From a virus: a stretch of 43,041 bases of DNA. The stretch covers positions 1 through 43,041 of IMG/VR virus record IMGVR_UViG_3300047440_000138, one strand, 5' to 3'. Shown here in pieces: positions 7,660-40,325 of this stretch. The position numbers and the translations under genes were made by a program. Position 1 is the stretch's first letter. Each line of letters starts with the position of its first letter. Below the pieces are notes generated by a model that saw only the letters and a program-made list of their open reading frames with translations, ran no database searches and was not told the DNA's origin.

Positions 7660-7832
7660 GAGCCACGATGACGAAGCTCCTAATCGGCGTCGCCATCGTC
7701 GCGGCGTTCCGATTCTTTTGGCTGGCTGATTCGGCACGGCATGAAGCGCCGTTCTCGCATGGACAGTGGAGACTGCTGGGCTTCTCCGCGATCACGGCGG
7801 CCGGCGCCGTGGGCTGGTGGGGCCGTCGCTGA
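7656..7832 (+). CDS. Small membrane protein, 58 aa
   Basis: Starts at ATG 7656, overlapping the previous stop. Two hydrophobic helices (about 7-22, LLIGVAIVAAFRFFWL, and about 39-55, LLGFSAITAAGAVGWW) suggest a two-pass membrane protein. Its stop overlaps the integrase ATG. Genes of this type near integrase often act in superinfection immunity, but that is inference. Confidence 0.6.
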   Translation: MRATMTKLLIGVAIVAAFRFFWLADSARHEAPFSHGQWRLLGFSAITAAGAVGWWGRR

Positions 7833-8896
7833 TGGGCCTGTTCACGCGTCCCGATTCGCCGTACTGGTGGTTGTGGTTGGAAACAACCCGCCAGAAGGAA
7901 CGCACCGATATTCGCATCGGCACCACGACCGATCAGCGCACCGACAGCCGACGACTGGCGAGCGATCGGTATCACCAGCGCATGAACGAGCTCGCGGCCA
8001 GGTTGTACAAACTGCCGTCCGCAATGCCGGCGATTCGCTTCCAGAAGTACGCCGACGACTACGCCCCGACGATCGCCTTGCACAAAGGCGCCGAGCGCGA
8101 ACGGGAAATCCTGAAGACCTTGACGGCGTTCTTCGGAAGCGATGTGTTGTCGACGATCGATCCCGATCGCGTCAAGCAGTTCATGGCCGCGCGCCGGGTG
8201 ACGGTCAGCGCCAGAACCGTCAACCGCGAAGTGGGGCTGCTCAAGTCGATGCTCCGCGACGCCGTGCCGAAGTACCTGAACACCTCGCCGCTCGCCGGCA
8301 TGAAATACCTGCCGACGACCAAACCACGCCGGCGATTGATGACCGAGGCCGAGGAACGCAAGCTGCTGGCGAAGGCGAACGTCTATGAAACCGCCTTACT
8401 CGTGCTCGGGATCGACGGGTTGATCCGCATGGGCGACCTACTCGACTTGAAACGGACAGACCGCCGCGGCGCCTGGTTGCACATTCGGGATCCGAAAGGC
8501 GGGGATTCGTACGACGTGGCGTTGTCGGCTCGAGCACGGCGCGCGCTGGATGACCTGCCGAAGAAACACGACTACTACTTCGCGGTCTACCGCGGCGCCG
8601 TCACCGCGCGCGATCGACGCAGCCGGATCCGCCGCGTCCTGAAACGCCTGTGCCAACGCGCCAAGGTGCCCTACGGACGCGCAAAGGGTGGGATCACGTT
8701 CCATTGGGCCACGAGGAAAACAGGTGCCACACGGCTCATCCTCGACCGCCAGGCGCCTGTTCCAGCCGTGCAACGGCAAGGCAACTGGAAGACGGCCGAT
8801 GTGCTGTTGAACATCTACGCCGAGGCCGACCGGAACGCCCAGCAACAGGCCGTCCGACTCCCGAGCCGTTCCCGTGGTAAGCGAAAGTCTGCGTAA
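7832..8896 (+). CDS. int: Tyrosine recombinase / phage integrase
   Basis: This 354-residue protein has the catalytic set of tyrosine recombinases: Arg199 (GLIRMGDLLDLK), His291-x-x-x-Arg295 (HWATR, matching box II HxxxR), Trp319 (GNW, replacing the common second His) and the nucleophile Tyr329 (NIYAEA). The N-terminal part holds the arm- and core-binding domains. ATG 7832 overlaps the previous stop as TGATG-type coupling; longer readings upstream are out-of-frame shadows. The stop lies about 25 bases before the tRNA-derived att core, the standard int-attP arrangement. It catalyses integration into a tRNA-Ala gene. Confidence 0.93.
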   Translation: MGLFTRPDSPYWWLWLETTRQKERTDIRIGTTTDQRTDSRRLASDRYHQRMNELAARLYKLPSAMPAIRFQKYADDYAPTIALHKGAEREREILKTLTAFFGSDVLSTIDPDRVKQFMAARRVTVSARTVNREVGLLKSMLRDAVPKYLNTSPLAGMKYLPTTKPRRRLMTEAEERKLLAKANVYETALLVLGIDGLIRMGDLLDLKRTDRRGAWLHIRDPKGGDSYDVALSARARRALDDLPKKHDYYFAVYRGAVTARDRRSRIRRVLKRLCQRAKVPYGRAKGGITFHWATRKTGATRLILDRQAPVPAVQRQGNWKTADVLLNIYAEADRNAQQQAVRLPSRSRGKRKSA

Positions 8897-9146: not shown

Positions 9147-10199
9147 ATGAAGTCTGAACGCGGAGCGATTCTCGTCCACGTCGCGATTGCCCTGGTCGCC
9201 TTGACGGCGTTCTCGGCCTTCGTGATCGACCAAGGCATGATGTACGTGGGCAAACGCCAAGCCCAGAACGCGGCCGACGCCGGGGCGTTGTCGGCTGCGA
9301 TTCACCTGATGGAGCAAGGCGACGATCTGGCCGGAGCCCGAGTCTCGGCCCAGACGTTCGCCCGGCAGAATGGGGTTATGGGCGAGTTGTTGGACCCGGC
9401 CGAAATATCGGTCGATCTGCCGATCCCCTGCCCGCCCGGCACAGGCACCAGCGGCATTTCCTGCGTCAAGGTCGATCTGCATCACATCCTCCCGACGTCG
9501 TTCGCCCGGCTCGTGGACATCAATTCCCAAGGGATCGCCGCGACCGCGACGGCGCAGCTCATCGGCGCCAATCAAGCCGACTGCCTTCGACCGTGGTTCG
9601 TGCTCGACAAACCGGCTCCAGGCTATACCACCGACGACATTGGCGACACGTTCGTGCTCGACAGCCGGATCACGCCGTCAGGCTTCGGCAAGATCGATGT
9701 CGGCTCAGGCGAAAACGACGTGGTGAACTCCGTCCATCATTGCGTCGACAATCCCGGCGACTTCGCGATCGGGGAAACCGTCCCGACCCAGACCGGCGCC
9801 GCTGGGAACCCGACCGCGAAAGCCGTCAACGACGTGATCGATTGGGATCCAACCGCCTATTACGACCCCATCACGAAAACGATCAAGGATAGCTGCGCGC
9901 CAAATTGCTACTGCAACGGTGACATCTGCCCCAATGCCGCGAAGGGCATGAGCCCGCGCGTCTTCGTGGCCCCGCTGTGTGACCCTGTGGCCGATACGGG
10001 GTGCGTCAGTGGCGGGAACGGCTCAACACACACCATCACGATCACGAAGTTCCTGTCGTTCTTCGTCACCTTCGCGCAAGCGCACGGCAACGACATCGAG
10101 ATACGAGCGATCCTCGTCGGTGGAGCGGGAGATTTAGGACCAGGGGAAGGGTCGCCCGTGGAATCGGCTTTCCTGAAGATCGTCCGACTCGTGCGGTGA
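9147..10199 (+). CDS. TadE/TadG-like Flp pilus-assembly protein
   Basis: The N-terminus (about residues 5-50) is the Tad pilus signature: RGAILVHVAIALVALTAFSA forms the membrane helix, then VIDQGMMYVGKRQAQNAADA and GALSAA. In hosts such proteins are minor pseudopilins of Tad/Flp pili. The remaining roughly 300 residues are extracellular-type, with a Cys-rich patch (CAPNCYCNGDIC, about 251-262). The gene is just right of attP and points away from the structural genes, the classic place for cargo picked up from a host. It could alter host pili, which many phages use as receptors, but this is inference. No other tad genes are present. Confidence 0.65.
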   Translation: MKSERGAILVHVAIALVALTAFSAFVIDQGMMYVGKRQAQNAADAGALSAAIHLMEQGDDLAGARVSAQTFARQNGVMGELLDPAEISVDLPIPCPPGTGTSGISCVKVDLHHILPTSFARLVDINSQGIAATATAQLIGANQADCLRPWFVLDKPAPGYTTDDIGDTFVLDSRITPSGFGKIDVGSGENDVVNSVHHCVDNPGDFAIGETVPTQTGAAGNPTAKAVNDVIDWDPTAYYDPITKTIKDSCAPNCYCNGDICPNAAKGMSPRVFVAPLCDPVADTGCVSGGNGSTHTITITKFLSFFVTFAQAHGNDIEIRAILVGGAGDLGPGEGSPVESAFLKIVRLVR

Positions 10200-16415: not shown

Positions 16416-16926
16416 TGGCGATCACGTACTCCATCGTGAGAATGTGTCCGGCCGTGGGCGCCGCGCCAAAGGTGACTTGCGCGCGATTCGCCGAGAGCGT
16501 GTAGCCGGTCGGGTCTTGAATCGATCCGTTGTCCGCAATCCATTCCAGGTATTCCGCGATGTCGAGCAGATTGAAGATCGTCGTCGCTCCGTCCCCGAGC
16601 AGCCGCATCAACCCGTGCAAATGCCCGCCGACACTGCTGCCGCCTGATCCGCTCGCGCTGATGGTGCGTACGCCCGCCACGGAGTCGTCGAACGTGATAT
16701 TCGTGCCCGCCACTTCGCGCCGGGAGTTCGCGAGTCGTGCCGTCTCGTTCGCGGTCGTGAGGTACGTCGCGTCGTTCGGCGCTGCGCCAATTGCCGCCGC
16801 TGTCGAGGTGTACGGAATGACCAGTTGATTGCCGGCCGGATCGGTCCCGACGACGCCGCCCGAAGGTGAACCCAGCACCCCGACGCCAGCGAAGGGCCGC
16901 TTGCGTCCTCGTAGTGGTGATCTCAT
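16408..16926 (-). CDS. Fibre-associated virion protein, 172 aa
   Basis: A basic N-terminus and Gly-rich stretches lead into a Thr/Ala-rich region (YLTTANETARLANSRR), then GSGGSSVGGHLHGLMRLLGD and a beta C-terminus (TLSANRAQVTFGAAPTAGHI) found at the ends of phage appendage proteins. Its stop overlaps the 456-aa fibre gene and its start overlaps the giant ejection gene. Probably an adaptor or trimerising fibre part. Confidence 0.5.
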   Translation of the reverse strand: MRSPLRGRKRPFAGVGVLGSPSGGVVGTDPAGNQLVIPYTSTAAAIGAAPNDATYLTTANETARLANSRREVAGTNITFDDSVAGVRTISASGSGGSSVGGHLHGLMRLLGDGATTIFNLLDIAEYLEWIADNGSIQDPTGYTLSANRAQVTFGAAPTAGHILTMEYVIANV

Positions 16927-19900
16927 CGGTGCGCCTGCTGTTTCGGCGGCGGCCCGAACAAGAGTTCCGAGAGGTCGCCCTTCCCTTCCATGACGCGCAT
17001 CAGTCCTTCAAACGTTTTTTCGATCTGATACACCGGCACCCCGTAGAAGCCGCCCGCCAATTCGGCGGCACTCTTGGACGCCTTCACCACTTTGTCGGTG
17101 TCTTGGCTCCTGATCGCGTTGGCGGTCTGGTTCAGCAACCGAATCGACGTGCCGAACGGCGCAAACGACGCCGGCCCCTGATAGTCCGGTGACGATAGGG
17201 CATTCGCGACTTCCCGCAGGCCGACGAACATGCCCATCGTGTGAGCAAATGCATCGCTGAACAGCGTCCACGACCACGAATCGCGCTTGTGGACCTGATG
17301 GAAAATCGCCGACAGCAGTACGAGCGGTGCGACGTTCAGCAACGTTGCGTCCATCACCTTGCGGCCGACGGTCTGATCCTTGTGAAAAATCTCGTAGTTC
17401 TGCCGGTGTAACGACAGCCCGTACGTCATAAACGTCGAGAACATTTTTCCGACGTAGTTGCGCTGTACCGATGCCTGATCGAGCAACCGGCCACCACCGA
17501 AGGCATCAGTAATGGCGGCGTCCGCGCGATCAGTGGCGCGGGCGCGGTCCTCTGGATGTTCGCCGAGCGCCTTGTGATAGGCGGCGAGCCACGTCGGGAT
17601 TTCCGCCATCTGAATAATCTTGTGAATCCCGTAGAGGTACGAATCGCTCACGCGATGGGAGAGTTCGGGATCGACGCCGATGCCCGACAGCGCGTCACGA
17701 AATGCGGCGGCCCACGGCCCACGGTTCAAGCCGATGTCGTTCTTGATGCTGCCCAACCCCTCCATGCGAGTCGACCAGCGATTTTTCATCAACGACGAGT
17801 TCGCTTCGACAAAGGCGGCCGAGTTCTCTGAATCTTTCGCGCTCCCGAGCCACTGCGGAATCGCTTTCGCGACGTCTGACCAACCCACGCGGACCATGCC
17901 GCTCGTAATGTTCGTGACGTGGCGTACCATCGTCGCAAAGTTCCACGCGAGCCGGGCCATCATGTAGCCCTGACGCACCGAGTTGATCGACCGATACCAC
18001 CCAGGTGGAGGCGTAGGCCCGATCGCCATGTCGCGGAACGCCGCCCGAATCTCGTTGTAAAACTGATCGCCCTTGTGCTCGTAAATCGCTTGCTGAATGT
18101 CCTTGCGGCCGAGAATCCGGCCGGTGTCGATCAACATCTCCCGGTGCGTCAGATCGTGGATGACCTGCTGTAAATGTTCGCCGACCACTTCAAGATCGGC
18201 CCGCAGCGGGATGCGAGTGTGTTCCGTGCGCGCTTCGGTGTGTCCGTTCGCAGTCTGGGCGCGCATGTGCGACGACTGCTCGATGATCTTGGCGAATGAG
18301 GCTTCATCGAATCCGCTCGCGCGCGCGCTGGATCGCCCTTCATAGGCGATCGGGTAATACCAGCCCGGCATATCACCGTGCGCGGTGCTGAACGGCGTCG
18401 GTTCAACCCACTTCGGCTCGACGCCGGTCACGCGCTTGTACAGCGTCCCGATCTGGCCCTTATAGGAGTTGATCAGGTCAGCCGTGTCTCGCACGTATTT
18501 CCAGTCTTCAGCCGTCAACGTGTCGAGAATCGCGCGGATCTTCGGTTCGGTGAGCGGGCCGGAGTTCCCGACCCCCGCAGACATCAACCGTTCGCGGTTA
18601 CCTTCGTTGCCATAGTTCAGCGCGACAACCAGCCGTGCGGCTGTGGACAAGCTGCCGACGCCGGGGATCGGCGTTTTCGCGTACCGCTCGCTTTCCCGGC
18701 CCTTGAACCGTTCGTCGTTGATTGCCGCCCACCGCTGGGCGGCGTCGTGGCCCATCACAACTTCGGCGTTCTGCGCTTCGTGCGCTGGCCGCCACACATG
18801 ATCGAAGAAAAACCCATCCTTGTAGCCGTCCAACTGACGCAGGAGGAACGGCATCGGCAGGTGGCCGAGTTCAGCCGCAACGAGCTTGCGCTTTAGGTTC
18901 GTCCCAGGCAGCCGTGGTTCCAGCGGCAGCACCTTCGCGCCAGATGAGTTCTCCGCGATCGACTGTGCCCCTTCGGCGCCGAGTTGATCGAGTTCGCGCT
19001 TGTCTGCCGCGCGGAGCAACTTGTTTTTGAACCGCGCCCAATGCTCGATCGACTTCGCGGCGTCATAGACACCGCGGAGTTCATCGACGGAGATGTCCCG
19101 GTAGTTCGCGCGGCGGGCGTCGTTCAGCAGGTCCGGCGGGATCGCGAGTTCGTGCCCTTGCCCCAATTCCTGCTCGACGAACTTCGCCAGCGATGCGCGC
19201 TTCCCGAGCTCCAGATTCGTGACGCGGGCGAAATCGTAACGATCACGCAGGCCGTCGATCTGCTCGAGATACCCGCCGCCCGCCTTGCCGATCCGTTCGC
19301 GGGTGACGGCTTTGTCGAAATGAGGGCCGAGATACTCACGGGCTTTGTCGCTGAATTCTCTGGCCGCGAGGGCTTCCCGGTAGTGGGCAAGGTTGATCAA
19401 TTCCTGTTGTTTGGCCTGAATGGCACCTTGTCGATCGCCGGCGGCGAGCAGATCGAACGCCTTCTGACTGGCGCGCTGCGCGGCCATCAGGAACAGGCCC
19501 GGCTTGACATCACGGACCTTCGTACTACCGATGCGCTGTTCGGCCATCGACCGCAGCAGACGGGCCGGAGGGATGATCCCGCCTTTCCCTTGCGCGCCCG
19601 CGAGCGCCGCCAGTTCCGCCTCAACCACCTTATCGCGATGAGTGGCGACGGCTTCCTTCGCCGCATCGGCGAACCGGCCATCGAGCACGACATCACCGTG
19701 CGTCTCGACCATTCGGCGTTGTGCTTCGGTTTCAACGGCTTGATTGAACGGGACGGCCGACTTCAACGCCTGCACGAGTTCATCGCCCGACGCGAACCCG
19801 AACATGTTCGCGGCGGTTTCCACGTCGATCCCGCCGTCCACTCGGTAGGCATCGTGCTTGCGGAGGGCTTTCAACGTGTCGGCGTCGTAATGGGCGAGGC

Positions 19901-22900
19901 TGTCCTTCGAGAGCTTGATCGGCTCGGTGTCGTTGACGCCGTTACGGATCGCGTCGAGAGCACGGTAGACCGGCTGCGCTTTGAGTTCGTCGCCGACCTG
20001 CGCGGCGACCTTGTCCTTCTCGGTGTTCCACCAGGTTTGCCGCTCACGTTGCACCGCGACGAGAGCTTGCTTTTCCAGATCGGCCCGCGCGCGTTCACTG
20101 GCGTCGGCGACGGTCGTGCGGTACTTGGCGAATTGCTCGTCGCTCATCCCGGCGGCTTTCGCATCGGTAAACAACGGCCGGACGTCGCCTTCGGTTTCAG
20201 CCTGCTTGATCGCGTCGTCGCTCGCCAGCAACCGATCGAAGACCTGTCGGACTTCTGGCGAGACGTTGACAGCCAATCCCTTGATCGAGCGATACACCCC
20301 GACGAGCCACGCACGGAACCGGGCGAACACCGGCCGCAGTTCCGCGCTCGGGGCTTTTCCGTCCATCAGGTAGGATTCAAAGCCACGGGCAAATTGTTCG
20401 TGCTGCTGCGTGCTGAACCCGACGCCGCGATGGTCCTCGTCGGCGAACCACTCTTGCACCGTCGCCATGTCGGCGAGGATCTGCTGTTGTTCGTCCGTCC
20501 GCTCGGCGGGCGCGATCTTGGCGATTTCATTCGAGAGATCATCGAGCACACCGAGGAAAAGGTGTCCTGATTCGTGGATTACCGAACTCAGATCCGCGCC
20601 TTGAAACAGGTCGATCCTGGTCTGCTCATTGCCGAATGTGATCTTGGCGCGCTCGCCTTGAAACAGCGTCGACTGCTGGCCCTTCTTCGACGGCTTCGCA
20701 ACCTCTGACGTCAGCGAAAACGGCGCGGCAAACTCCGGTGTTTTGTTTTCCGTGTCACGCACGGCGCCGACATCTGCGGGCAGTCGCGGCTGTTGCTCGC
20801 CCGTGCTGAGCGTATCGAACAGCCCGCCCGCGTCAGGCTTTGCGCCTTGATTGAACGAGTTTGGATCGAATGAGGTGTCGCCGCCCGTGTCGACCGCATC
20901 GCTTTCCAGTGACTTGTCGATCGCATCCGAGAGCGCATCAGTGAATTCGACCGGCGCGACCGTGCCCCACGACGGCGGAAGTTCCGGCGGCGACATGGAA
21001 TCGTAGTGTCCGGCCGCCCGGTTCTCGGCCACACGCAGGACACCTTCGGCGAGGTTGTTATGCACGTCGCCGGTCGCGAGCAGTTTACTGATCGCCTCAG
21101 CGACCTTGCCGCGCGTCGCGCTGTTCTCGCGCGCCAGTTCTCCCTTGCGCGCACCGCTCGACACCTTGTTCAGCGGAGCAAAACCGAGGACGTCGTGATA
21201 GACCGCCGCGCCTGCACTGCCGGCCACCACCTGCATGTCGCCGCCGGCAGCGTTGCCATGCTTGCCGGTTTCATCGCCGAGCCAGTTCCACGTCCGGCCG
21301 ACGAACGGGAACGTCTCCATTTCGTCGCGGATTCGTTCAATCTCGCGACGGACTTCCGGGGTAATGCGGGCTTGGTTTTCTTCTAGTGGACGACGAACGA
21401 AGGCTTCGTCGATGCCGGCGGGGGAGTGTATCCGGCGTGGTTCAGCGCTAGGGCCATTGCCTGCCCCTTCTCCACTCCCGCCTTGATCAGCGCGAGGCTG
21501 TTCTGCAGGACTGCTTGAAACGACTGGCCGGACTGGAGTTTCACTGGCGGCATTGCGTCCCTTATCCTGTGCTGGCGTGGTGCCTGTGTCAAGTCCTTCA
21601 CGCTGGATCTGCAACCCGTACCGCTTGAACAATTCGGCCGGATCCACACCGGCCCGTTGCCCGAGTGTCCCGAAGGCCGATTCGTACAACGTCGCGTAAC
21701 TCTCAGCCGTGGACTTCTCGAACCCGGCCGCGGTCAGCTGATCGATCATGTGCTGGCGGATCGGTTCGGTAGGCGGTTGGTTCGAACCTTCAACCTGTTG
21801 CTGGCGTTCGGCGTGGAACGCGGTTTCGAATGTCTGCGCTTCTCGCGCATTCATCTGCTCGGGTGCCAGTCGGAGTTCATTCGCAAAGAACGCGTTATGT
21901 TCGGTCGGCCCGATCTTCACGGCATACGCCGCCGTGGGAATGGCGAGGTCTTCACCCGTGCGGACCGCGCGATCGTACGCCTCCGGGTTGCCGACGACAT
22001 CAGCCGCCACCACCCGAGGATCGAGCCCCTTCCCTTGCCAGTACGCCGTCCACGACTCAATCGGGGCGTACAGGGTGTCCGCGCCGGACTCTTTGACCTG
22101 TCCGTGAATGAGTTCCGCCGCCTTCTCCGGGGACCGCTGGACCGTCTTGGATTCGGCTGCTGTCTCGCCCAACTTCTCGACGAAATGCGCCGTGCCGTGG
22201 CCCACGACGGTCATCGTGCCGGCCGCCGCGAGGGCACTGACAACCGCGCCCCCGATCTCGCTCGGCTGCTCCTTGAGCCAGTCGGCCAAGGTCTTGTCTT
22301 TGTTCGCTGGCAGGAAGGCCCACGCGTTCAGGTTTTGGAGCTCGGTCTGAATTGGCATCAGAGTCACGGCCGGTAGGATCTGATGCGCTAGTGTGGTAAT
22401 CAGCCCGCTTTTCGCGGCGAGATCCCCCAGCATCCGTTCCGCCGGAACGAAGCTCACGGCCGCCTGAATCGCGCCGTCGATCGCGCCCGTCGCCTCCGAC
22501 TTGCCCACCGATAACCCCTGCTTGCGCGCCGTCCCGTAGGAACTGCCGAACCCCTGCGCGGCAAACATCGCGGCGAGACTCACACCGCCCGATACGGCCC
22601 CAGCGATGAGCGCAGGGACCATCTGGCCAGCGCCTTCGATGCCGCTGTAGATGTTGCGCTCGATGAAGCCTGCGCCCGTCTGTGGCCCTCTGACGCGGTT
22701 GGCGAGGTCTTCCAGGTATTTCGCCTTCCGGGCCGATTCTTCTGCGAGGGCCGGATGCCCGGTCGCTTCGCCGACCGCTTCAGGAATGCCGTACAGGCCG
22801 CGCGCCACATCCAACGGGAACGCACCGACCGCGCCCGCGAGGTTCCGGCCGTAGCCCAGCACCTTTTCAAACGTCGACAACGCCGGCAGATCGTCTTTCG

Positions 22901-23222
22901 AAACAGCCGCATTCGTGACGGACTGCCCGAGCCAGTCAGCGGTCTGTGGCGACTGTTTCAGCGTTTGGGCGGTTTGCTGCTGCTCGTGACGTTGCTTGAT
23001 CGCATCGAAGTTCTTCAGGATCAGGTCGGTCGGCAGTCCGGTCGACTTCGAAATCTCGGTCGCTTGTGCGGCCTGTTCGGGGTTGATGGGTTGCGCGGCC
23101 TGAGTGGCAACACGGGCCTTCGTGTCCACCTGTCCGTACAGGTTCGCGATCGTCTGGTCGTACGTGTTCGGCGGTTCGCCTGCCGCGTCCGTCAACGGCT
23201 CGTCGTACTGGTTCAGCGGCAT
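16923..23222 (-). CDS. Giant internal virion / DNA-ejection protein (T7 gp16-like position), 2099 aa
   Basis: One uninterrupted 2099-codon gene follows gp14- and gp15-like genes, the T7 ejectosome order. N-terminal part: helical, with hydrophobic Gly/Ala-rich segments (about 110-350) that could enter the membrane. About 540-600: low-complexity linker. About 640-740: a globular region (TWNWLGDETGKHG). His883-Glu-Ser-Gly-His887 is a metallopeptidase-type HExxH motif inside VIHESGHLFLGVLDDL. The C-terminal quarter resembles large polyvalent phage proteins (LAWNFATMVRHVTNITSG, VGKMFSTFMTYGLSLHRQN). It is thought to be packaged and injected with the DNA. No lytic transglycosylase motif is recognised. 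Confidence 0.75.
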   Translation of the reverse strand: MPLNQYDEPLTDAAGEPPNTYDQTIANLYGQVDTKARVATQAAQPINPEQAAQATEISKSTGLPTDLILKNFDAIKQRHEQQQTAQTLKQSPQTADWLGQSVTNAAVSKDDLPALSTFEKVLGYGRNLAGAVGAFPLDVARGLYGIPEAVGEATGHPALAEESARKAKYLEDLANRVRGPQTGAGFIERNIYSGIEGAGQMVPALIAGAVSGGVSLAAMFAAQGFGSSYGTARKQGLSVGKSEATGAIDGAIQAAVSFVPAERMLGDLAAKSGLITTLAHQILPAVTLMPIQTELQNLNAWAFLPANKDKTLADWLKEQPSEIGGAVVSALAAAGTMTVVGHGTAHFVEKLGETAAESKTVQRSPEKAAELIHGQVKESGADTLYAPIESWTAYWQGKGLDPRVVAADVVGNPEAYDRAVRTGEDLAIPTAAYAVKIGPTEHNAFFANELRLAPEQMNAREAQTFETAFHAERQQQVEGSNQPPTEPIRQHMIDQLTAAGFEKSTAESYATLYESAFGTLGQRAGVDPAELFKRYGLQIQREGLDTGTTPAQDKGRNAASETPVRPVVSSSPAEQPRADQGGSGEGAGNGPSAEPRRIHSPAGIDEAFVRRPLEENQARITPEVRREIERIRDEMETFPFVGRTWNWLGDETGKHGNAAGGDMQVVAGSAGAAVYHDVLGFAPLNKVSSGARKGELARENSATRGKVAEAISKLLATGDVHNNLAEGVLRVAENRAAGHYDSMSPPELPPSWGTVAPVEFTDALSDAIDKSLESDAVDTGGDTSFDPNSFNQGAKPDAGGLFDTLSTGEQQPRLPADVGAVRDTENKTPEFAAPFSLTSEVAKPSKKGQQSTLFQGERAKITFGNEQTRIDLFQGADLSSVIHESGHLFLGVLDDLSNEIAKIAPAERTDEQQQILADMATVQEWFADEDHRGVGFSTQQHEQFARGFESYLMDGKAPSAELRPVFARFRAWLVGVYRSIKGLAVNVSPEVRQVFDRLLASDDAIKQAETEGDVRPLFTDAKAAGMSDEQFAKYRTTVADASERARADLEKQALVAVQRERQTWWNTEKDKVAAQVGDELKAQPVYRALDAIRNGVNDTEPIKLSKDSLAHYDADTLKALRKHDAYRVDGGIDVETAANMFGFASGDELVQALKSAVPFNQAVETEAQRRMVETHGDVVLDGRFADAAKEAVATHRDKVVEAELAALAGAQGKGGIIPPARLLRSMAEQRIGSTKVRDVKPGLFLMAAQRASQKAFDLLAAGDRQGAIQAKQQELINLAHYREALAAREFSDKAREYLGPHFDKAVTRERIGKAGGGYLEQIDGLRDRYDFARVTNLELGKRASLAKFVEQELGQGHELAIPPDLLNDARRANYRDISVDELRGVYDAAKSIEHWARFKNKLLRAADKRELDQLGAEGAQSIAENSSGAKVLPLEPRLPGTNLKRKLVAAELGHLPMPFLLRQLDGYKDGFFFDHVWRPAHEAQNAEVVMGHDAAQRWAAINDERFKGRESERYAKTPIPGVGSLSTAARLVVALNYGNEGNRERLMSAGVGNSGPLTEPKIRAILDTLTAEDWKYVRDTADLINSYKGQIGTLYKRVTGVEPKWVEPTPFSTAHGDMPGWYYPIAYEGRSSARASGFDEASFAKIIEQSSHMRAQTANGHTEARTEHTRIPLRADLEVVGEHLQQVIHDLTHREMLIDTGRILGRKDIQQAIYEHKGDQFYNEIRAAFRDMAIGPTPPPGWYRSINSVRQGYMMARLAWNFATMVRHVTNITSGMVRVGWSDVAKAIPQWLGSAKDSENSAAFVEANSSLMKNRWSTRMEGLGSIKNDIGLNRGPWAAAFRDALSGIGVDPELSHRVSDSYLYGIHKIIQMAEIPTWLAAYHKALGEHPEDRARATDRADAAITDAFGGGRLLDQASVQRNYVGKMFSTFMTYGLSLHRQNYEIFHKDQTVGRKVMDATLLNVAPLVLLSAIFHQVHKRDSWSWTLFSDAFAHTMGMFVGLREVANALSSPDYQGPASFAPFGTSIRLLNQTANAIRSQDTDKVVKASKSAAELAGGFYGVPVYQIEKTFEGLMRVMEGKGDLSELLFGPPPKQQAHR
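21383..21553 (-). CDS. Possible nested gene inside the giant ejection gene, 56 aa
   Basis: In the +1 frame relative to the giant gene, ATG 21553 has an AAGGGA ribosome site 4-5 bases upstream and encodes 56 residues. The core (QNSLALIKAGVEKGQAMALA) resembles small phage proteins with an IKAGKxxxQAxAIAL pattern. The 49-aa protein at 31086-31235 here has a similar QNVAIALKQAGK end. The giant protein at this place is a disordered Pro/Ser/Gly linker, so dual coding would cost little. It may still be chance. Confidence 0.4.
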   Translation of the reverse strand: MPPVKLQSGQSFQAVLQNSLALIKAGVEKGQAMALALNHAGYTPPPASTKPSFVVH

Positions 23223-31286: not shown

Positions 31287-31745
31287 TTACGGGATGTAGT
31301 TCTTCGCGTAGCTCATGGCGAGCGGGGCGAAGAGGTCGTGCGCGGTGAAGTACGAACTCACCGTGATCGTCGCGGCGCCGCCCGTGGGCACGTAGCGGCA
31401 ACCGATGAATCGCAACATGCCGGCGACCGGCAGCGCGTTCGGGAATGGCAGGAAGAACGTGTACCCCGCGACGAGGTCCGCGTTCAGCTTGGTGACGGTA
31501 ACCAACGAAATGAGGCCCGCCGAGAGGGCCGCATCCGTGGTCTGGATGATTTCGAACGTGGCGCTGGTGAGCGAGGCGGCCACATCGACCGAGATCGCAA
31601 AGCCCATCGGGACGCCGCTGGCGATCAGCCGCTTGGGCGGGGTGCCCGTGCCGCCTGGTGTGCCCAGGTCGATCGAGCTGGTCGAGACGGCCGAGGCGGT
31701 GACCGCCTGTGCCGCCGAGACTTTCAACAGAGAGTCGACATACAT
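31287..31745 (-). CDS. Capsid decoration/cement protein (Bbp16-like), 152 aa
   Basis: Starting at ATG 31745 with GGAGAA upstream, the protein has the Bbp16-type layout: DSLLKVSAAQAVTASAVST, then IDLGTPGG, a beta core (TSATFEIIQTTDAALSAG) and a final RFIGCRYVPTGGAATITV beta pair. In Bordetella phage BPP-1 this protein cements the capsid. It directly follows the major capsid gene here, as expected. Longer readings overlap that gene out of frame. Confidence 0.75.
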   Translation of the reverse strand: MYVDSLLKVSAAQAVTASAVSTSSIDLGTPGGTGTPPKRLIASGVPMGFAISVDVAASLTSATFEIIQTTDAALSAGLISLVTVTKLNADLVAGYTFFLPFPNALPVAGMLRFIGCRYVPTGGAATITVSSYFTAHDLFAPLAMSYAKNYIP

Positions 31746-31785: not shown

Positions 31786-32922
31786 TTACGAGACGAGCGT
31801 TTCCGCGTTCGTGAGCTGATCGGACAACCGCACCGGCACGTCGCCGAAGACGAGGATCCGCTTCCCGTCAAAGTTCTCGTAGGTCAGCCCGCCGCCCGAG
31901 CCCACGGACTCGCGCGCTTCCCGGCGCAGGAGCCGCCGCATCGTGCGGTTCATGTAGAACACGCGACGCCCGAGCATGTTCGGGATCGTTTCGATCGCGG
32001 TTTCCATGTTCGTGATGATCGTTTTGATGTTCGCCGCGTCGGTGTCGCTGATGTCGATGTTGCAGAGGCGCACGACGTAGCGCCAATCGCGGAGGGCGAT
32101 TCCGGCTTTCCACTGGAACCGCTCCTGCATGACGCGCATACGCGACCCAGGCAGGCCGGCGGTGACTTCGGCGGTGACTTCGCCGTAGTCGTTGTGTTGC
32201 AGACCGGCAATCGAGCCCTTCGGGAAAATGCCCGTGCAGGTGTCATCGCCCCAGCTCACCAACCAGATCGAGGCGTTGTCGGAACCGGAGCCGCCGCACT
32301 TGATCACGTTCGACCCGTTCGGCGCCGTCGAGAGCGAATACCGAACGCTCAGCCCGTTGAACTGCTCCTGGTTCAGTCCGGCGTTGCCGTAGAACAGGAC
32401 GCGCGCGAGTTCCTGGTTCATGGCTTCGATGAACGCGCGCGCTTCGGACAGTCGGAAGGCGGCCGTTTCGCCGTTCAACTTATAGACGTCGATGTCGACT
32501 TCCGACCACGCTTCGAGGATGCCGCAGCCTTCGTCGATCTGCGCGGTGATCGACTTGCTCGGGGTGATGCCAGCGTTCAGTAAGCGCCAGGCAACGGTCG
32601 GCAACCCGACGCGAACGCTGGTGCGGTGCCCGGTCGGCAGGTTGCCTTCCATCCAGTTCATATCCGTCAAAATGTCGTTGCTCTGGTTCAAGAGTTCGAC
32701 GAGGGCCGCGGCTTTGCCGTCTGGGTCCATGCGCTTGACGATTTCCGCGAGGGTGAGGTTGCCGACGCCGAGCGCCGCGACGCCCACAGCGCCGACGCCG
32801 ATGTAGTACCACAGCGTGTGACTCTGAACGGCGCCCGCGCCGCCCATCGCCGCATTCGCCACACTGACGCCGAGCGTCAGCAGCGACAGAAAGACCAACA
32901 GGATTCGACTCAAAACGCGCAT
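31786..32922 (-). CDS. Major capsid protein with an unusual signal-peptide-like N-terminus
   Basis: From about residue 55 the 378-residue protein matches HK97-fold capsid proteins of the BPP-1 type: NLTLAEIVKRMDPDGKAAAL, NWMEGNLPTGHRTSVRVGLP, AFRLSEARAFIEAMNQELAR, VLFYGNAG and VRLSDQLTNAET. The first 54 residues are strange: MRVLSRILLVFLSLLTLG then VSVANA|A is a textbook Sec signal, and WYYIGVGAVGVAALGVG (38-54) is a second hydrophobic helix. ATG 32922 has a perfect AAGGAG 7 bases upstream, so the ribosome really starts there. Internal GTG codons near residue 46 lack such a site. Confidence 0.88.
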   Translation of the reverse strand: MRVLSRILLVFLSLLTLGVSVANAAMGGAGAVQSHTLWYYIGVGAVGVAALGVGNLTLAEIVKRMDPDGKAAALVELLNQSNDILTDMNWMEGNLPTGHRTSVRVGLPTVAWRLLNAGITPSKSITAQIDEGCGILEAWSEVDIDVYKLNGETAAFRLSEARAFIEAMNQELARVLFYGNAGLNQEQFNGLSVRYSLSTAPNGSNVIKCGGSGSDNASIWLVSWGDDTCTGIFPKGSIAGLQHNDYGEVTAEVTAGLPGSRMRVMQERFQWKAGIALRDWRYVVRLCNIDISDTDAANIKTIITNMETAIETIPNMLGRRVFYMNRTMRRLLRREARESVGSGGGLTYENFDGKRILVFGDVPVRLSDQLTNAETLVS

Positions 32923-32933
32923 GAACGTGCTCC

Positions 32934-33557
32934 TTACGCCTTCGCCTCTGGGTAGAGGGTTTGGGCGATTGTTTTTTGTGGGGTGGACTGACCGCCTGGG
33001 GTGGTCGGGCCGTCTTCCTTGAACTTCGCGCCGAAGCGCGACAACGCGCGGACGAGCAGCTTGTTGTTGCCGAGGCCAAGGCGATCGATGAATGCTTTGG
33101 CTTCAGCTTCCTGCTCGCCAAACAGTTCCTTGATGCCGCGCGCTGCGTGCTTCAACGTCGTCTCGTACTTCGTGCCGCCGAGTTCGGGATCCGCTTTCAG
33201 ATCCGCGCCTTCTTGATCAAGTTGCGCGATCGCGGCGACGAGCGCGGTGTTCTGGGCTTCGACGTACTTCTGCGCTTGCTCTTGCGTGAGCCCGAGCGCT
33301 TTCACCTCGCCGCGATACCGATCGAGGTCGGCACCCGTGAGGGGCGATTTCTCCGGCAGCGTGAGCGCGTAACTCTCAGGGACGTGGGGCGCAGTGGCCT
33401 TCCGGTCATCTGTGGTCGTCGCGGCTGCCTTCGTGCCATCGGCTTGCGCCGTGGTGTCGGTCGCGGCTTTCGAATCGGCCGTCTTCGTGTCCGCTGATGT
33501 CGTATCCGCCTTCGTGGTGTCGGCGGCTTTGGTGTCGTCTGCTGTTGCTGTTGCCAT
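32934..33557 (-). CDS. Capsid scaffolding protein, 207 aa
   Basis: ATG 33557 has an AGGAG site. The first 60 residues are low-complexity Thr/Asp/Ala/Lys repeats (ADTTKADTTSADTKTADS), then the scaffold core: VPESYALTLPEKSPLTGADL, LGLTQEQAQKYVEAQNTALV, a DPELGG turn, and FIDRLGLGNNKLLVRALSRF. It would guide capsid assembly and then leave the head. It lies just above the capsid gene. A possible upstream hydrophobic extension is translation of the terminator region and is rejected. Confidence 0.8.
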   Translation of the reverse strand: MATATADDTKAADTTKADTTSADTKTADSKAATDTTAQADGTKAAATTTDDRKATAPHVPESYALTLPEKSPLTGADLDRYRGEVKALGLTQEQAQKYVEAQNTALVAAIAQLDQEGADLKADPELGGTKYETTLKHAARGIKELFGEQEAEAKAFIDRLGLGNNKLLVRALSRFGAKFKEDGPTTPGGQSTPQKTIAQTLYPEAKA

Positions 33558-33584
33558 GTCGTTCGCTCCTGAAAAAGTCGGGAG

Positions 33585-33636
33585 CAAAAGAAAAAGGGCC
33601 AGCACCAACCGCGATTCACGCGATCAGCACTGGCCC
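33585..33636 (-). terminator. Rho-independent terminator or attenuator above the scaffold gene
   Basis: GGGCCAG (33636-33630) pairs with CTGGCCC (33602-33596) on the minus strand, with a smaller inner hairpin, followed by TTTTTCTTTT. It stands within the late operon, 28 bases before the scaffold start, so it would lower transcription into scaffold, capsid and tail genes unless antiterminated. Confidence 0.75.
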
Positions 33637-34349: not shown

Positions 34350-34880
34350 TTACTTGACGACCGCCGTGATGGTGTACGTGGCGCCGACTGGCGAACCAGA
34401 AGGCCCGGTGATCTTCTCTCGCACGCGAATGCGATCCCCCCACGGACCTTGCCGGGCCGAACCCGCCGCGAGCGATTCCTGTGTGACCGCTGAACCCTGC
34501 GTGATGTTCGTCGAGGCCGCGGTCGTCACCGTGGCCGCGACCGCCGCACCGCTCACCATGAAGCGCTGTGTCGTCGCACCGGCGCCGAGCGCATACGTCA
34601 ACGAGGACACCAGATCGTCCCAGGTGGTTCCACCATCGACGGAATCTTCGAGCCAGATTTGCAACGTCCCCGTCGCCGTGCCGGCCGCGGTGATGTTGAT
34701 CAGGATGTCCATCTGCTCGAAGCCAATCGGCGGCAGCAGGACGGTGTTCCTGGTCAGCGTGGTCGCAGCCACGCCGGAGACTTGGGACGGCTGGATCGTG
34801 ATAAAGCCGCCCTGTGCCTGCAGTGGCCGAGAGGCCACCAGCACCAGCAGCGCGCCCGCGAGGATGAGACGTCGCATCAT
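34350..34880 (-). CDS. Virion-type protein with N-terminal signal peptide, 176 aa
   Basis: ATG 34880 has AGGA 5 bases upstream. The start, MMRRLILAGALLVLVASRPL then QAQ|GG, is a clear Sec signal. The mature part is beta-rich (TLQIWLEDSVDGGTTWDDLV, then SARQGPWGDRIRVREKITGP), as in tail or head decoration proteins. It lies between other structural genes, so a virion protein with a signal peptide is again unusual. It might instead be a secreted effector. Confidence 0.6.
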   Translation of the reverse strand: MMRRLILAGALLVLVASRPLQAQGGFITIQPSQVSGVAATTLTRNTVLLPPIGFEQMDILINITAAGTATGTLQIWLEDSVDGGTTWDDLVSSLTYALGAGATTQRFMVSGAAVAATVTTAASTNITQGSAVTQESLAAGSARQGPWGDRIRVREKITGPSGSPVGATYTITAVVK

Positions 34881-34888
34881 AGGAGTCC

Positions 34889-35440
34889 TCACAGAATCGT
34901 GACCGCGCCACGAATCGGGAACAGGGTGTATTCAATGGTGTACGGCGGCGTTTCCGTCAGCGAGCCGGTCGGCTGCAGTTTGTACGTCACGACGTTCGCG
35001 ACTGAGACGTCAGCCGTGAACGCCAGCGTCAGCGTGTTGGCCGCTGATACCGACTTCGCTTCGTTCGCCGCGACGTAGGTGATCGCGCCAACAACAACAG
35101 TCGCTTTCGCGTTCGCTGAGTACGTGAAGATGCCCGTAATTGTCGCGAAGTCTGTTCCGTCACCTTCGCGCACGGTGAAGATGCCCATCCCGCCGATCAT
35201 CGACGACGCCGGGACCACAACCGCGAACAGTGCCGTCGCCGAACCATCCACGATCGTTTTCGCCGTGGGATTCAGGAATATTTTGTTCTGCCCGTTCGTG
35301 TCATTGACAACACCGTTCGCCAACACGGGCGTCGACAGGTTCAGGCCAACCACCGGCACCAGTGTTGTAATAGATTGACCGTCGTCAGCCACGGTCATAA
35401 TCGGATGCGCGAGCCGATCACGTAAAATGACTTCAGGCAT
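34889..35440 (-). CDS. Beta-rich virion protein, 183 aa
   Basis: The product starts MPEVILRDRLAHPI and continues as an almost all-beta, Thr/Val/Ala-rich sequence without cysteine (VSAANTLTLAFTADVSVANV). This is typical of head decoration or tail-wall proteins. Its start overlaps the Bbp19-like gene by 8 bases. No specific family is recognised. Confidence 0.55.
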   Translation of the reverse strand: MPEVILRDRLAHPIMTVADDGQSITTLVPVVGLNLSTPVLANGVVNDTNGQNKIFLNPTAKTIVDGSATALFAVVVPASSMIGGMGIFTVREGDGTDFATITGIFTYSANAKATVVVGAITYVAANEAKSVSAANTLTLAFTADVSVANVVTYKLQPTGSLTETPPYTIEYTLFPIRGAVTIL

Positions 35441-38609: not shown

Positions 38610-38805
38610 CGGCACACACCTTGATCGACCGCAGGAACCGCCGATCGAAGCTCTCAATCGCATGTTCCCCGACCGGCCAGTTCGTATCCGGCAGGTCGCC
38701 TTCATTCGGCGCGGGAGAGTCCTTCAGCCGTCGCTGTTCGTCCTGCCACTGCTTCAACGACATCGAGTGAATCCGGCGGCGTTCCTCTTTGGAAAAGAAC
38801 GACAT
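38602..38805 (-). CDS. Small charged protein, 67 aa
   Basis: Starts at ATG 38805, overlapping the large terminase stop as TGATG. An N-terminal helix rich in Lys/Arg/Glu (FSKEERRRIHSMSLKQWQDE) leads to a Pro-rich middle. It might assist packaging. Not recognised. Confidence 0.5.
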   Translation of the reverse strand: MSFFSKEERRRIHSMSLKQWQDEQRRLKDSPAPNEGDLPDTNWPVGEHAIESFDRRFLRSIKVCADA

Positions 38806-40325
38806 CAGCCCCGCCCTTCCGCGTACGGATCCCAATCGAGTGCAGGCTTCCGCGCATTCTGGGCCAGCGCGAAGACACCCTGAGCTTGTGCCGGCATATC
38901 GACCAGGCCGAACGTGAGCGCGAGCGCATCGGCCAGATCCGGCGAGCGGCCCAGCCGTTTCTTGACTTGATCTTTCTCTTCAAGCAGAAACTTGCCCTTG
39001 CTGAACGTGTAGGTCGGCGTCGTCAGTTCGCCGGTGAGCTCAGGGACGGACGGCAGCGCGCCGCCCCGCTTGACCCATTCAGCCATCGCGAACCAGATTT
39101 CCGCGCGTCGGTTCGCATACCGCGGATCGTGGGCCGGTGCCGCGAACTGCACGTCGATCGGGCTGAACCCGTTCGCGCGCATGACGTCGACTGCGCCAGC
39201 CGCCCAACCACCCGTGGCATCGAAGAAGGAGATTTCCGCGCCCCAATGCTGCTGGGCCTGCATCGCTCGGTTCGCAATGTCGACCGACACCGACGAGCCG
39301 CGGTCGTGCCGCATGATGATCGGCCGGAACGCCGCGAGTCCTTGCCTGGGGAATCCGACCGTGCGATCGTCGCCGTAGCGGGACACGTCCCAGCCGACGC
39401 GCTTCTGTGCCCAGCCGAATTGATCGTCGGTCAGATGCCGACCCATCGCGGCTTGCACCTCGTCGACTCCGAGCAGGGAATTGATCGACGACGGCGGGAA
39501 CTCTCCGAGAATTGTCGCTTTTACCCAGGCGTTGTCTCGGCCATAGAGCCGAATCTGTTCGCGGGCGTTCTCGATGTTGACCCGCTTTGAACGGTTCGGA
39601 TCGTCCGGGTCACCAGTCACGCGAACGATGTACCAGACGCCACCGTTCTGCGCGGCGTGATGCAGCGCGCCTTCCAGACTCGTCGGGTTGCCGCCCTGTA
39701 GGAGCTTTGCCCAGCGATACGCCGACGAGAAAATCTGCTCACCCGATCGCAGCACCGGGACGGGAATGTCGCCAGACTCGTCGAGCGTCACCATGACGTC
39801 TTTCGCATGGAGTCCCGACAACGTGCGGCCGAGCGCTTCCTGGTCGGCGCGCTTGCTCCAATTGCGGGCTTCGATGAACCACGTTTCGGGATGGTCGACG
39901 GACGAAAACCGCGTCGCCGTCCAGCGGAACGCGAGCTTGAGGTATTCCGACCGGGACTGCCACTTCGACAACGCCGGCCATAGGTTGCCGCTCAAGTTGT
40001 CTTCAGTGATCGAGGTACAGAGCCCTTGCGGGTGCTCCCCCTTCGAGCCGTAACAGGCGATGAAGTTGAGGTTCAGCACCGCCAAGATCGCCGTCTTGCC
40101 AGGCCCTGTGCAGGCTTGCAGGCTGATCCGCAACTTGTCTGGATCCTGCGACGGGAACACGTCGAACACGCGCTGCTGCCACGGATCGCCGGCTTCGAAC
40201 TTCAATTCCTCGTACGCGAACTGCGCCGGGTTTTCCCGCCAGCCACGAACCCGCGCGCCGGCGCGAGCGAGGGCGCTATCAGCCACGCAGGACACCAGCA
40301 GGACGGCAAAGAGGATGCGCTTCAC
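38805..40325 (-). CDS. terL: Terminase large subunit with signal-like N-terminus
   Basis: The packaging ATPase/nuclease, 506 residues. Walker A ACTGPGKT is at 71-78 and Walker B VMVTLDE at 177-183. The nuclease aspartates are Asp313 (GWDVSRYGDD), Asp369 (FFDATGG) and Asp466 (SPDLADAL). It docks on the portal and pumps DNA into the head. The start is GTG 40325, overlapping the small subunit stop, with GAGG 5 bases upstream. The first 20 residues (KRILFAVLLVSC then ADSALA) look like a cleavable Sec signal, which a cytoplasmic motor should not have. A start at an internal GTG near codon 14 would remove it but lacks a ribosome site. Confidence 0.9.
   Translation of the reverse strand: MKRILFAVLLVSCVADSALARAGARVRGWRENPAQFAYEELKFEAGDPWQQRVFDVFPSQDPDKLRISLQACTGPGKTAILAVLNLNFIACYGSKGEHPQGLCTSITEDNLSGNLWPALSKWQSRSEYLKLAFRWTATRFSSVDHPETWFIEARNWSKRADQEALGRTLSGLHAKDVMVTLDESGDIPVPVLRSGEQIFSSAYRWAKLLQGGNPTSLEGALHHAAQNGGVWYIVRVTGDPDDPNRSKRVNIENAREQIRLYGRDNAWVKATILGEFPPSSINSLLGVDEVQAAMGRHLTDDQFGWAQKRVGWDVSRYGDDRTVGFPRQGLAAFRPIIMRHDRGSSVSVDIANRAMQAQQHWGAEISFFDATGGWAAGAVDVMRANGFSPIDVQFAAPAHDPRYANRRAEIWFAMAEWVKRGGALPSVPELTGELTTPTYTFSKGKFLLEEKDQVKKRLGRSPDLADALALTFGLVDMPAQAQGVFALAQNARKPALDWDPYAEGRG

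Follow-up and report, generated by a model that had tools for sequence, protein, structure and literature searches.

Capsid gene and its N-terminal leader

The 43,041-nucleotide stretch of viral DNA analyzed here (IMG/VR record IMGVR_UViG_3300047440_000138, in the following referred to as the window) raises the question of why a phage major capsid protein (MCP), of a type that is assembled in the cytoplasm, should begin with a signal-peptide-like sequence. In the preliminary description, an ideal ribosome site was noticed 7 bases before the start codon, the first 24 residues were considered to fit a Sec-type signal peptide with ANA|A cleavage, a second hydrophobic helix was placed at residues 38-54, and the HK97-type homology was proposed to start only near residue 55. 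Membrane-guided capsid assembly, a hydrophobic scaffold-like arm that is later removed, and two initiation sites producing a membrane form and a capsid form were offered as readings.

Re-examination of the gene confirmed this observation. The open reading frame is intact, and its ATG is preceded by AAGGAG at a distance of 7 nt, overlapping the scaffold gene's stop. The N-terminus reads MRVLSRILLVFLSLLTLGVSVANA|AMGGAGAVQSHTLWYYIGVGAVGVAALGVGNLTLAEIVKR, with hydrophobic segments at about residues 7-19 and 37-53 and ANA|A at position 24/25 (Table 1). The protein was identified as a BPP-1/epsilon15-type MCP by a match to Pfam PF20911 (GP7; E 2.4e-117, 391.7 bits against a cut-off of 27), starting at residue 66, and to PHROG 212, starting at residue 53. 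Alignment with BPP-1-group capsid proteins, which had been suggested beforehand as a way of locating the beginning of the homology, placed it slightly earlier than proposed: residue 51 aligns with residue 4 of the BPP-1 MCP (Bbp17, PDB 3J4U; E 1.4e-87), so that the canonical start corresponds to residue 48 and the first 47 residues are extra. The capsid domain was also aligned with the epsilon15 MCP (gp7, PDB 3J40). The gene order scaffold/protease - MCP - Bbp16 cement protein is that of the reference loci.

Table 1. Features of the window discussed in the text (all coordinates refer to the window).
Feature	Position	Strand	Remarks
Major capsid protein gene, BPP-1/epsilon15 type, long form	31786..32922	-	378 aa; ATG at 32922
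Shine-Dalgarno sequence AAGGAG	32930..32935	-	7 nt before ATG 32922
N-terminal leader	32782..32922	-	Residues 1-47; absent from the canonical (short) form
Hydrophobic helix 1	32866..32904	-	Residues 7-19; signal peptide h-region/TM1; approximate dG -0.84
c-region with ANA|A	32848..32863	-	Possible signal peptidase I site after residue 24
Hydrophobic segment 2	32764..32814	-	Residues 37-53; merges into the canonical N-terminus; possible stop-transfer TM2; approximate dG +1.5, marginal
Canonical capsid domain	31786..32781	-	Residues 48-378
Upstream gene, PHROG 458 (labelled protease)	32934..33557	-	Position held by the putative protease/scaffold gene in BPP-1-group phages; ATG start with SD; 11 nt before MCP
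Bbp16-type cement protein gene	31287..31745	-	Downstream of MCP; retained in long and short loci
Terminase large subunit (TerL) gene	38805..40325	-	Second signal-like leader (MKRILFAVLLVSCVADSALA...)
Sequence upstream of the scaffold start	33558-33619	-	In frame, but before the SD-preceded ATG; possibly a regulatory element
Small protein of unknown family	34350-34892	-	Near the head genes; classical signal peptide
Integrase gene	7766-8896	+
TadE/G-like (PF13400) pilus-type gene	9147-10199	+	Directly after the integrase gene
PHROG 9880 protein	16923-23222	-	2099 aa; unknown function

Distribution of the leader among related phages

To evaluate whether the leader is a peculiarity of this phage, four scans of viral contigs and one scan of genome contigs were performed, resulting in 149 distinct MCPs with an assignable start. 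In total, 57 of these relatives possess a leader of 35-57 residues (long forms; e.g., MRFLTLLILLLVAALAVDVGAATTIVTVHAAGGSGWLAYVGTGLAVFGVALGTGNLTLADWAKR in L015, L numbers denoting the loci of relatives), whereas 92 start at the canonical MAxLGxxxLTLADWAKR (short forms). In contrast to the window, the isolates with an annotated MCP that were inspected in GenBank, including BPP-1, epsilon15, BcepC6B and isolates of Pseudomonas, Caulobacter, Xanthomonas and Vibrio, start at the canonical Met (MAxLxxxxxTLxD), the leader thus representing an added region and not a failure of homology. Homologues with the same ribosome site but no hydrophobic N-terminus had been named in advance as evidence that would speak against the observation. 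Homologues without the leader are represented by the 92 short forms, but these start at a ribosome site of their own at the canonical Met, showing that the leader is labile, not that it is spurious. Long forms reside in GC-rich contigs (mean 0.66, 55 of 57 above 0.60), while short forms range from 0.37 to 0.72, 37 of them also being above 0.60.

Hosts were also sought for these phages, but none was identified: the scan of genome contigs yielded six loci, all of them short, and whole-genome searches of about 700 genomes from two phyla revealed no close relatives beyond the starting genomes (the N-termini of the 11 distant hits were not examined). No tRNA was detected in the window. One of the records considered, L205 (PQ492659.1, Limnohabitans phage DC33), is filed under Inoviridae although its 39-kb genome carries a BPP-1-type capsid protein, and is probably misclassified.

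Long and short forms interleave on the capsid tree. A capsid-domain tree with outgroups requires at least 21 long/short changes, comprising 10 gains and 11 losses under equal costs, and a single early gain with 28 losses appears only if gains cost three times as much. Singletons such as L005, L009 and L011 are short next to long relatives. Either the leader is exchanged by recombination at the scaffold/MCP border or it is repeatedly lost and regained, and Gly at the junction in most members favours few origins. The leader is consequently not needed for this capsid fold. Frequent gain and loss would also fit an arms race or host-dependent tuning, in which a regulatory leader, by co-translational targeting or slow synthesis, tunes MCP dosage or timing or hides nascent MCP from cytosolic defence systems that sense capsid proteins, without membrane-bound assembly. 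However, there is no direct evidence for this reading, and a purely regulatory leader need not keep the second hydrophobic segment or the charge bias described below; it is therefore regarded as unlikely.

Translation start sites and coding constraint

An SD was found at the upstream ATG in 52 of 57 long genes and at the canonical ATG in 89 of 92 short genes. None of the 57 long genes has an SD-preceded start codon 6-20 residues before the DWAKR anchor, and only 10 have any ATG there. Moreover, the canonical Met is kept in only 2 of 57 long forms, Gly standing at this position in 47. A GTG at residue 46 of the window protein could in principle start a short form, but two initiation sites are not supported by these data, and this reading, already largely refuted in silico, is considered very improbable.

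The scaffold stop lies 6-34 nt before the MCP start in long and short loci, apart from one short locus with 174 nt, and a separate small membrane gene upstream of the short forms was not seen. An artefact or a non-coding upstream region was rejected on the basis of SD placement, open frames of different in-frame lengths in 57 genes, and pairwise pN/pS values below 1. The pooled pN/pS amounts to 0.60 in the leader and 0.23 in the body, indicating that the leader is coding, but free to change within a hydrophobic pattern. A sequence similar to that located just upstream of the scaffold start in the window was also found upstream of the scaffold starts in L015, L019, L029, L030 and L041.

Features of the leader

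The leader consists of a basic n-region, a strongly hydrophobic helix, an Ala-rich c-region, a loop almost without Lys/Arg, and a second, weaker hydrophobic segment. All 39 long forms of the first set have 12-residue KD maxima of 2.27 or more within the first 28 residues, compared to at most 1.86 in 24 short ones. Approximate insertion energies, calculated from central-position values from the literature with a simple weighting, averaged -1.07 kcal/mol for helix 1 and +1.46 for segment 2, whereas the best stretch in short forms reached +6.4; SignalP and DeepTMHMM were not applied. Segment 2 is glycine-rich and, in some members (L047, L152 and L197), too short for a clear span. It runs into the canonical N-terminus, which is followed by Lys-Arg. 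The same K/R follow in short forms (2.89 against 2.79 K+R in canonical residues 9-24), so that this part is inherited and is not evidence for topology. An AlphaFold model of the full MCP was poor (pLDDT 63), while a model of the first 75 residues showed a helix at residues 2-27 (pLDDT 83-90 over residues 1-20) and a low-confidence helix at residues 36-51, representing weak evidence only. Among PDB sequences, no match to the leader was found at E <= 1, and thus no homology to a solved inovirus coat protein.

In an alignment of 28 leaders, Arg2 (27 of 28) and the Ala after the helix (26 of 28) are the most conserved positions before Gly47. This Ala, at the putative -1 position, is preceded at -3 by V/L/I in 25 leaders and followed by Ala in 19, the helix ending in [VLI]-x-A|A. 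The ANA|A of the window obeys the (-3,-1) rule. However, a small home-made signal peptidase I (SPase I) weight matrix built from 26 E. coli signal peptides gave the site itself no support (-0.1; the best site in the window is elsewhere and scores 5.6), and the leaders scored lower on average than E. coli signal peptides (5.8 against 12.0, leave-one-out). The conserved Ala and the weak matrix scores point in different directions regarding cleavage, which itself was not assayed, and the matter is left undecided here. The basic n-region and hydrophobic h-region of a Sec-type signal peptide, on the other hand, are present.

The charge distribution was evaluated in 32 leaders being less than 45% identical. 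Their loops contain 3 K/R in 486 residues, compared to 909 in 9785 residues (9.3%) of the body (p 2.7e-16), and 29 of 32 loops have no K/R at all, while D/E are kept (34, against 1122 in the body). This corresponds to the positive-inside pattern and indicates translocation of the loop. A hydrophobic arm without membrane insertion, acting inside the cell as a scaffold-like or chaperone-binding element and clipped from the procapsid, perhaps by the product of the upstream PHROG 458 gene, is not excluded: many tailed phages remove N-terminal delta domains, the family of the neighbouring gene is labelled protease, and the leader evolves fast. However, such an arm does not predict a basic n-region, a loop free of K/R but not of D/E, or a conserved V/L/I-x-A|A c-region, nor does it explain the conserved Arg2. 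Furthermore, MCP N-termini of this group face outwards (PMC3863775), not towards an internal scaffold, and short relatives use the same scaffold family without a leader. This reading is thus deemed rather unlikely.

Possible role of the leader in capsid assembly

Of the readings proposed in the preliminary description, membrane-guided assembly fits the data best, the two-start reading fails and the removable arm is merely not excluded, so that the earlier interpretation is supported in part. In the explanation favoured here, with moderate confidence, the leader is a membrane-insertion module fused in front of a normal HK97-fold capsid protein. As the chain emerges, helix 1 (a signal peptide or signal anchor) would be inserted in the cytoplasmic membrane through Sec and/or YidC, the short loop would cross to the periplasm, and signal peptidase I would probably cut after the conserved Ala in many members. 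The second hydrophobic segment would stop transfer, so that the capsid domain stays in the cytoplasm, tethered by its N-terminus. If this marginal segment does not insert, Sec would export the capsid domain, which makes no sense for assembly. Because the N-terminus of the BPP-1 MCP lies on the external surface of the shell (PMC3863775), procapsids would assemble with their outside against the membrane and be freed later by proteolysis or at lysis. The sequence data themselves demonstrate the leader, its translation start, its conservation pattern, its charge asymmetry and its lability, whereas insertion, cleavage, tethered assembly with docking, and release are inferred.

On paper, the arrangement of signal, short translocated loop, hydrophobic segment and basic cytoplasmic continuation is that of the M13 (Inoviridae) procoat, the precursor of the major coat protein pVIII and a YidC substrate processed by signal peptidase (PMC8920935). 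By analogy, the long MCP is predicted to be inserted with its loop outside and the capsid domain in the cytoplasm. There is no sequence or fold homology between the two, the long MCP having a 331-residue HK97-fold domain and an icosahedral shell instead of a single helix; its insertion by YidC/Sec and its processing were not measured. Membrane-linked head assembly has a precedent in T4, the proheads of which start on the inner membrane through the portal gp20 with gp40 and YidC (PMC9958956). In T4, the portal is tied to the membrane through chaperones, whereas in the phages studied here the signal is on the MCP and the portal has none.

Alternatively, the outward-facing leader could remain on the finished virion and make it sticky towards hydrophobic surfaces, lipids or cells. 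The external N-termini of BPP-1 and a labile distribution resembling that of surface decorations would fit this view, but hundreds of exposed, TM-grade helices should aggregate, and the Ala c-region suggests processing; this possibility is considered unlikely. No virion data were available. A more far-reaching reading, according to which the whole icosahedral shell is built from membrane-anchored subunits docked by the outer face to the inner membrane, so that particles bud into or keep a lipid coat outside the capsid, is not excluded by the evidence, but is improbable. A lipid membrane in the virion, the criterion for membrane-containing phages such as the Tectiviridae, was not looked for, since no virion was available.

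The capsid protein family itself is known, while the recurrent leader, a putative membrane-targeting module, is new: no paper describing such a leader on a tailed-phage MCP was found in literature searches, which covered a partial library with crude full-text terms. Tailed-phage capsids are taken to assemble free in the cytoplasm or, in T4, on a membrane-bound portal. A recurrent export or anchor signal on the subunit that makes up the shell would mean that a sizeable, uncultured branch of phages builds heads on the membrane, and the 21 or more switches between close relatives provide natural pairs for testing what the signal does.

Signal-like N-termini of other proteins

To determine whether the trait is restricted to the MCP, other proteins encoded on the same contigs were inspected. 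Portal (0 of 74), cement (0 of 56), scaffold (0 of 36) and a tail protein (0 of 60) never begin with a comparable hydrophobic stretch, while 5-7% of other called genes do; a control with another MCP family was not completed. The leader of the MCP is not a chance feature, recurring in 57 distinct relatives under coding constraint while these four proteins never have it; the lack of such a signal on portal, scaffold and cement at the same time counts against the favoured explanation. The exception is TerL, for which a signal-like hydrophobic leader was detected in the window, L015 (1307-2857) and L034 (3744-5273), all with long MCPs, corresponding to 3 of 24 TerLs in long loci and 0 of 29 in short loci. 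TerL has no second hydrophobic segment, leaving its topology uncertain.

Several small virion-like proteins carry classical signal peptides in both kinds of loci (L014:8044-8370, L044:7511-7933, L048:7949-8906, L095:666-986 and 1764-2912, L034:7952-8518, and L085:7769-8176), the C-terminal part of L095:1764-2912 matching PHROG 673 (head scaffolding protein). The small protein of unknown family encoded near the head genes of the window was also found in L004, L011, L012 and L017, its signal being present in most homologues and absent from L009/L010. Furthermore, the pilus-type gene following the integrase gene of the window represents phage cargo or is host-derived, and the 2099-aa protein matches PHROG 9880 over its C-terminal 1200 residues or so.
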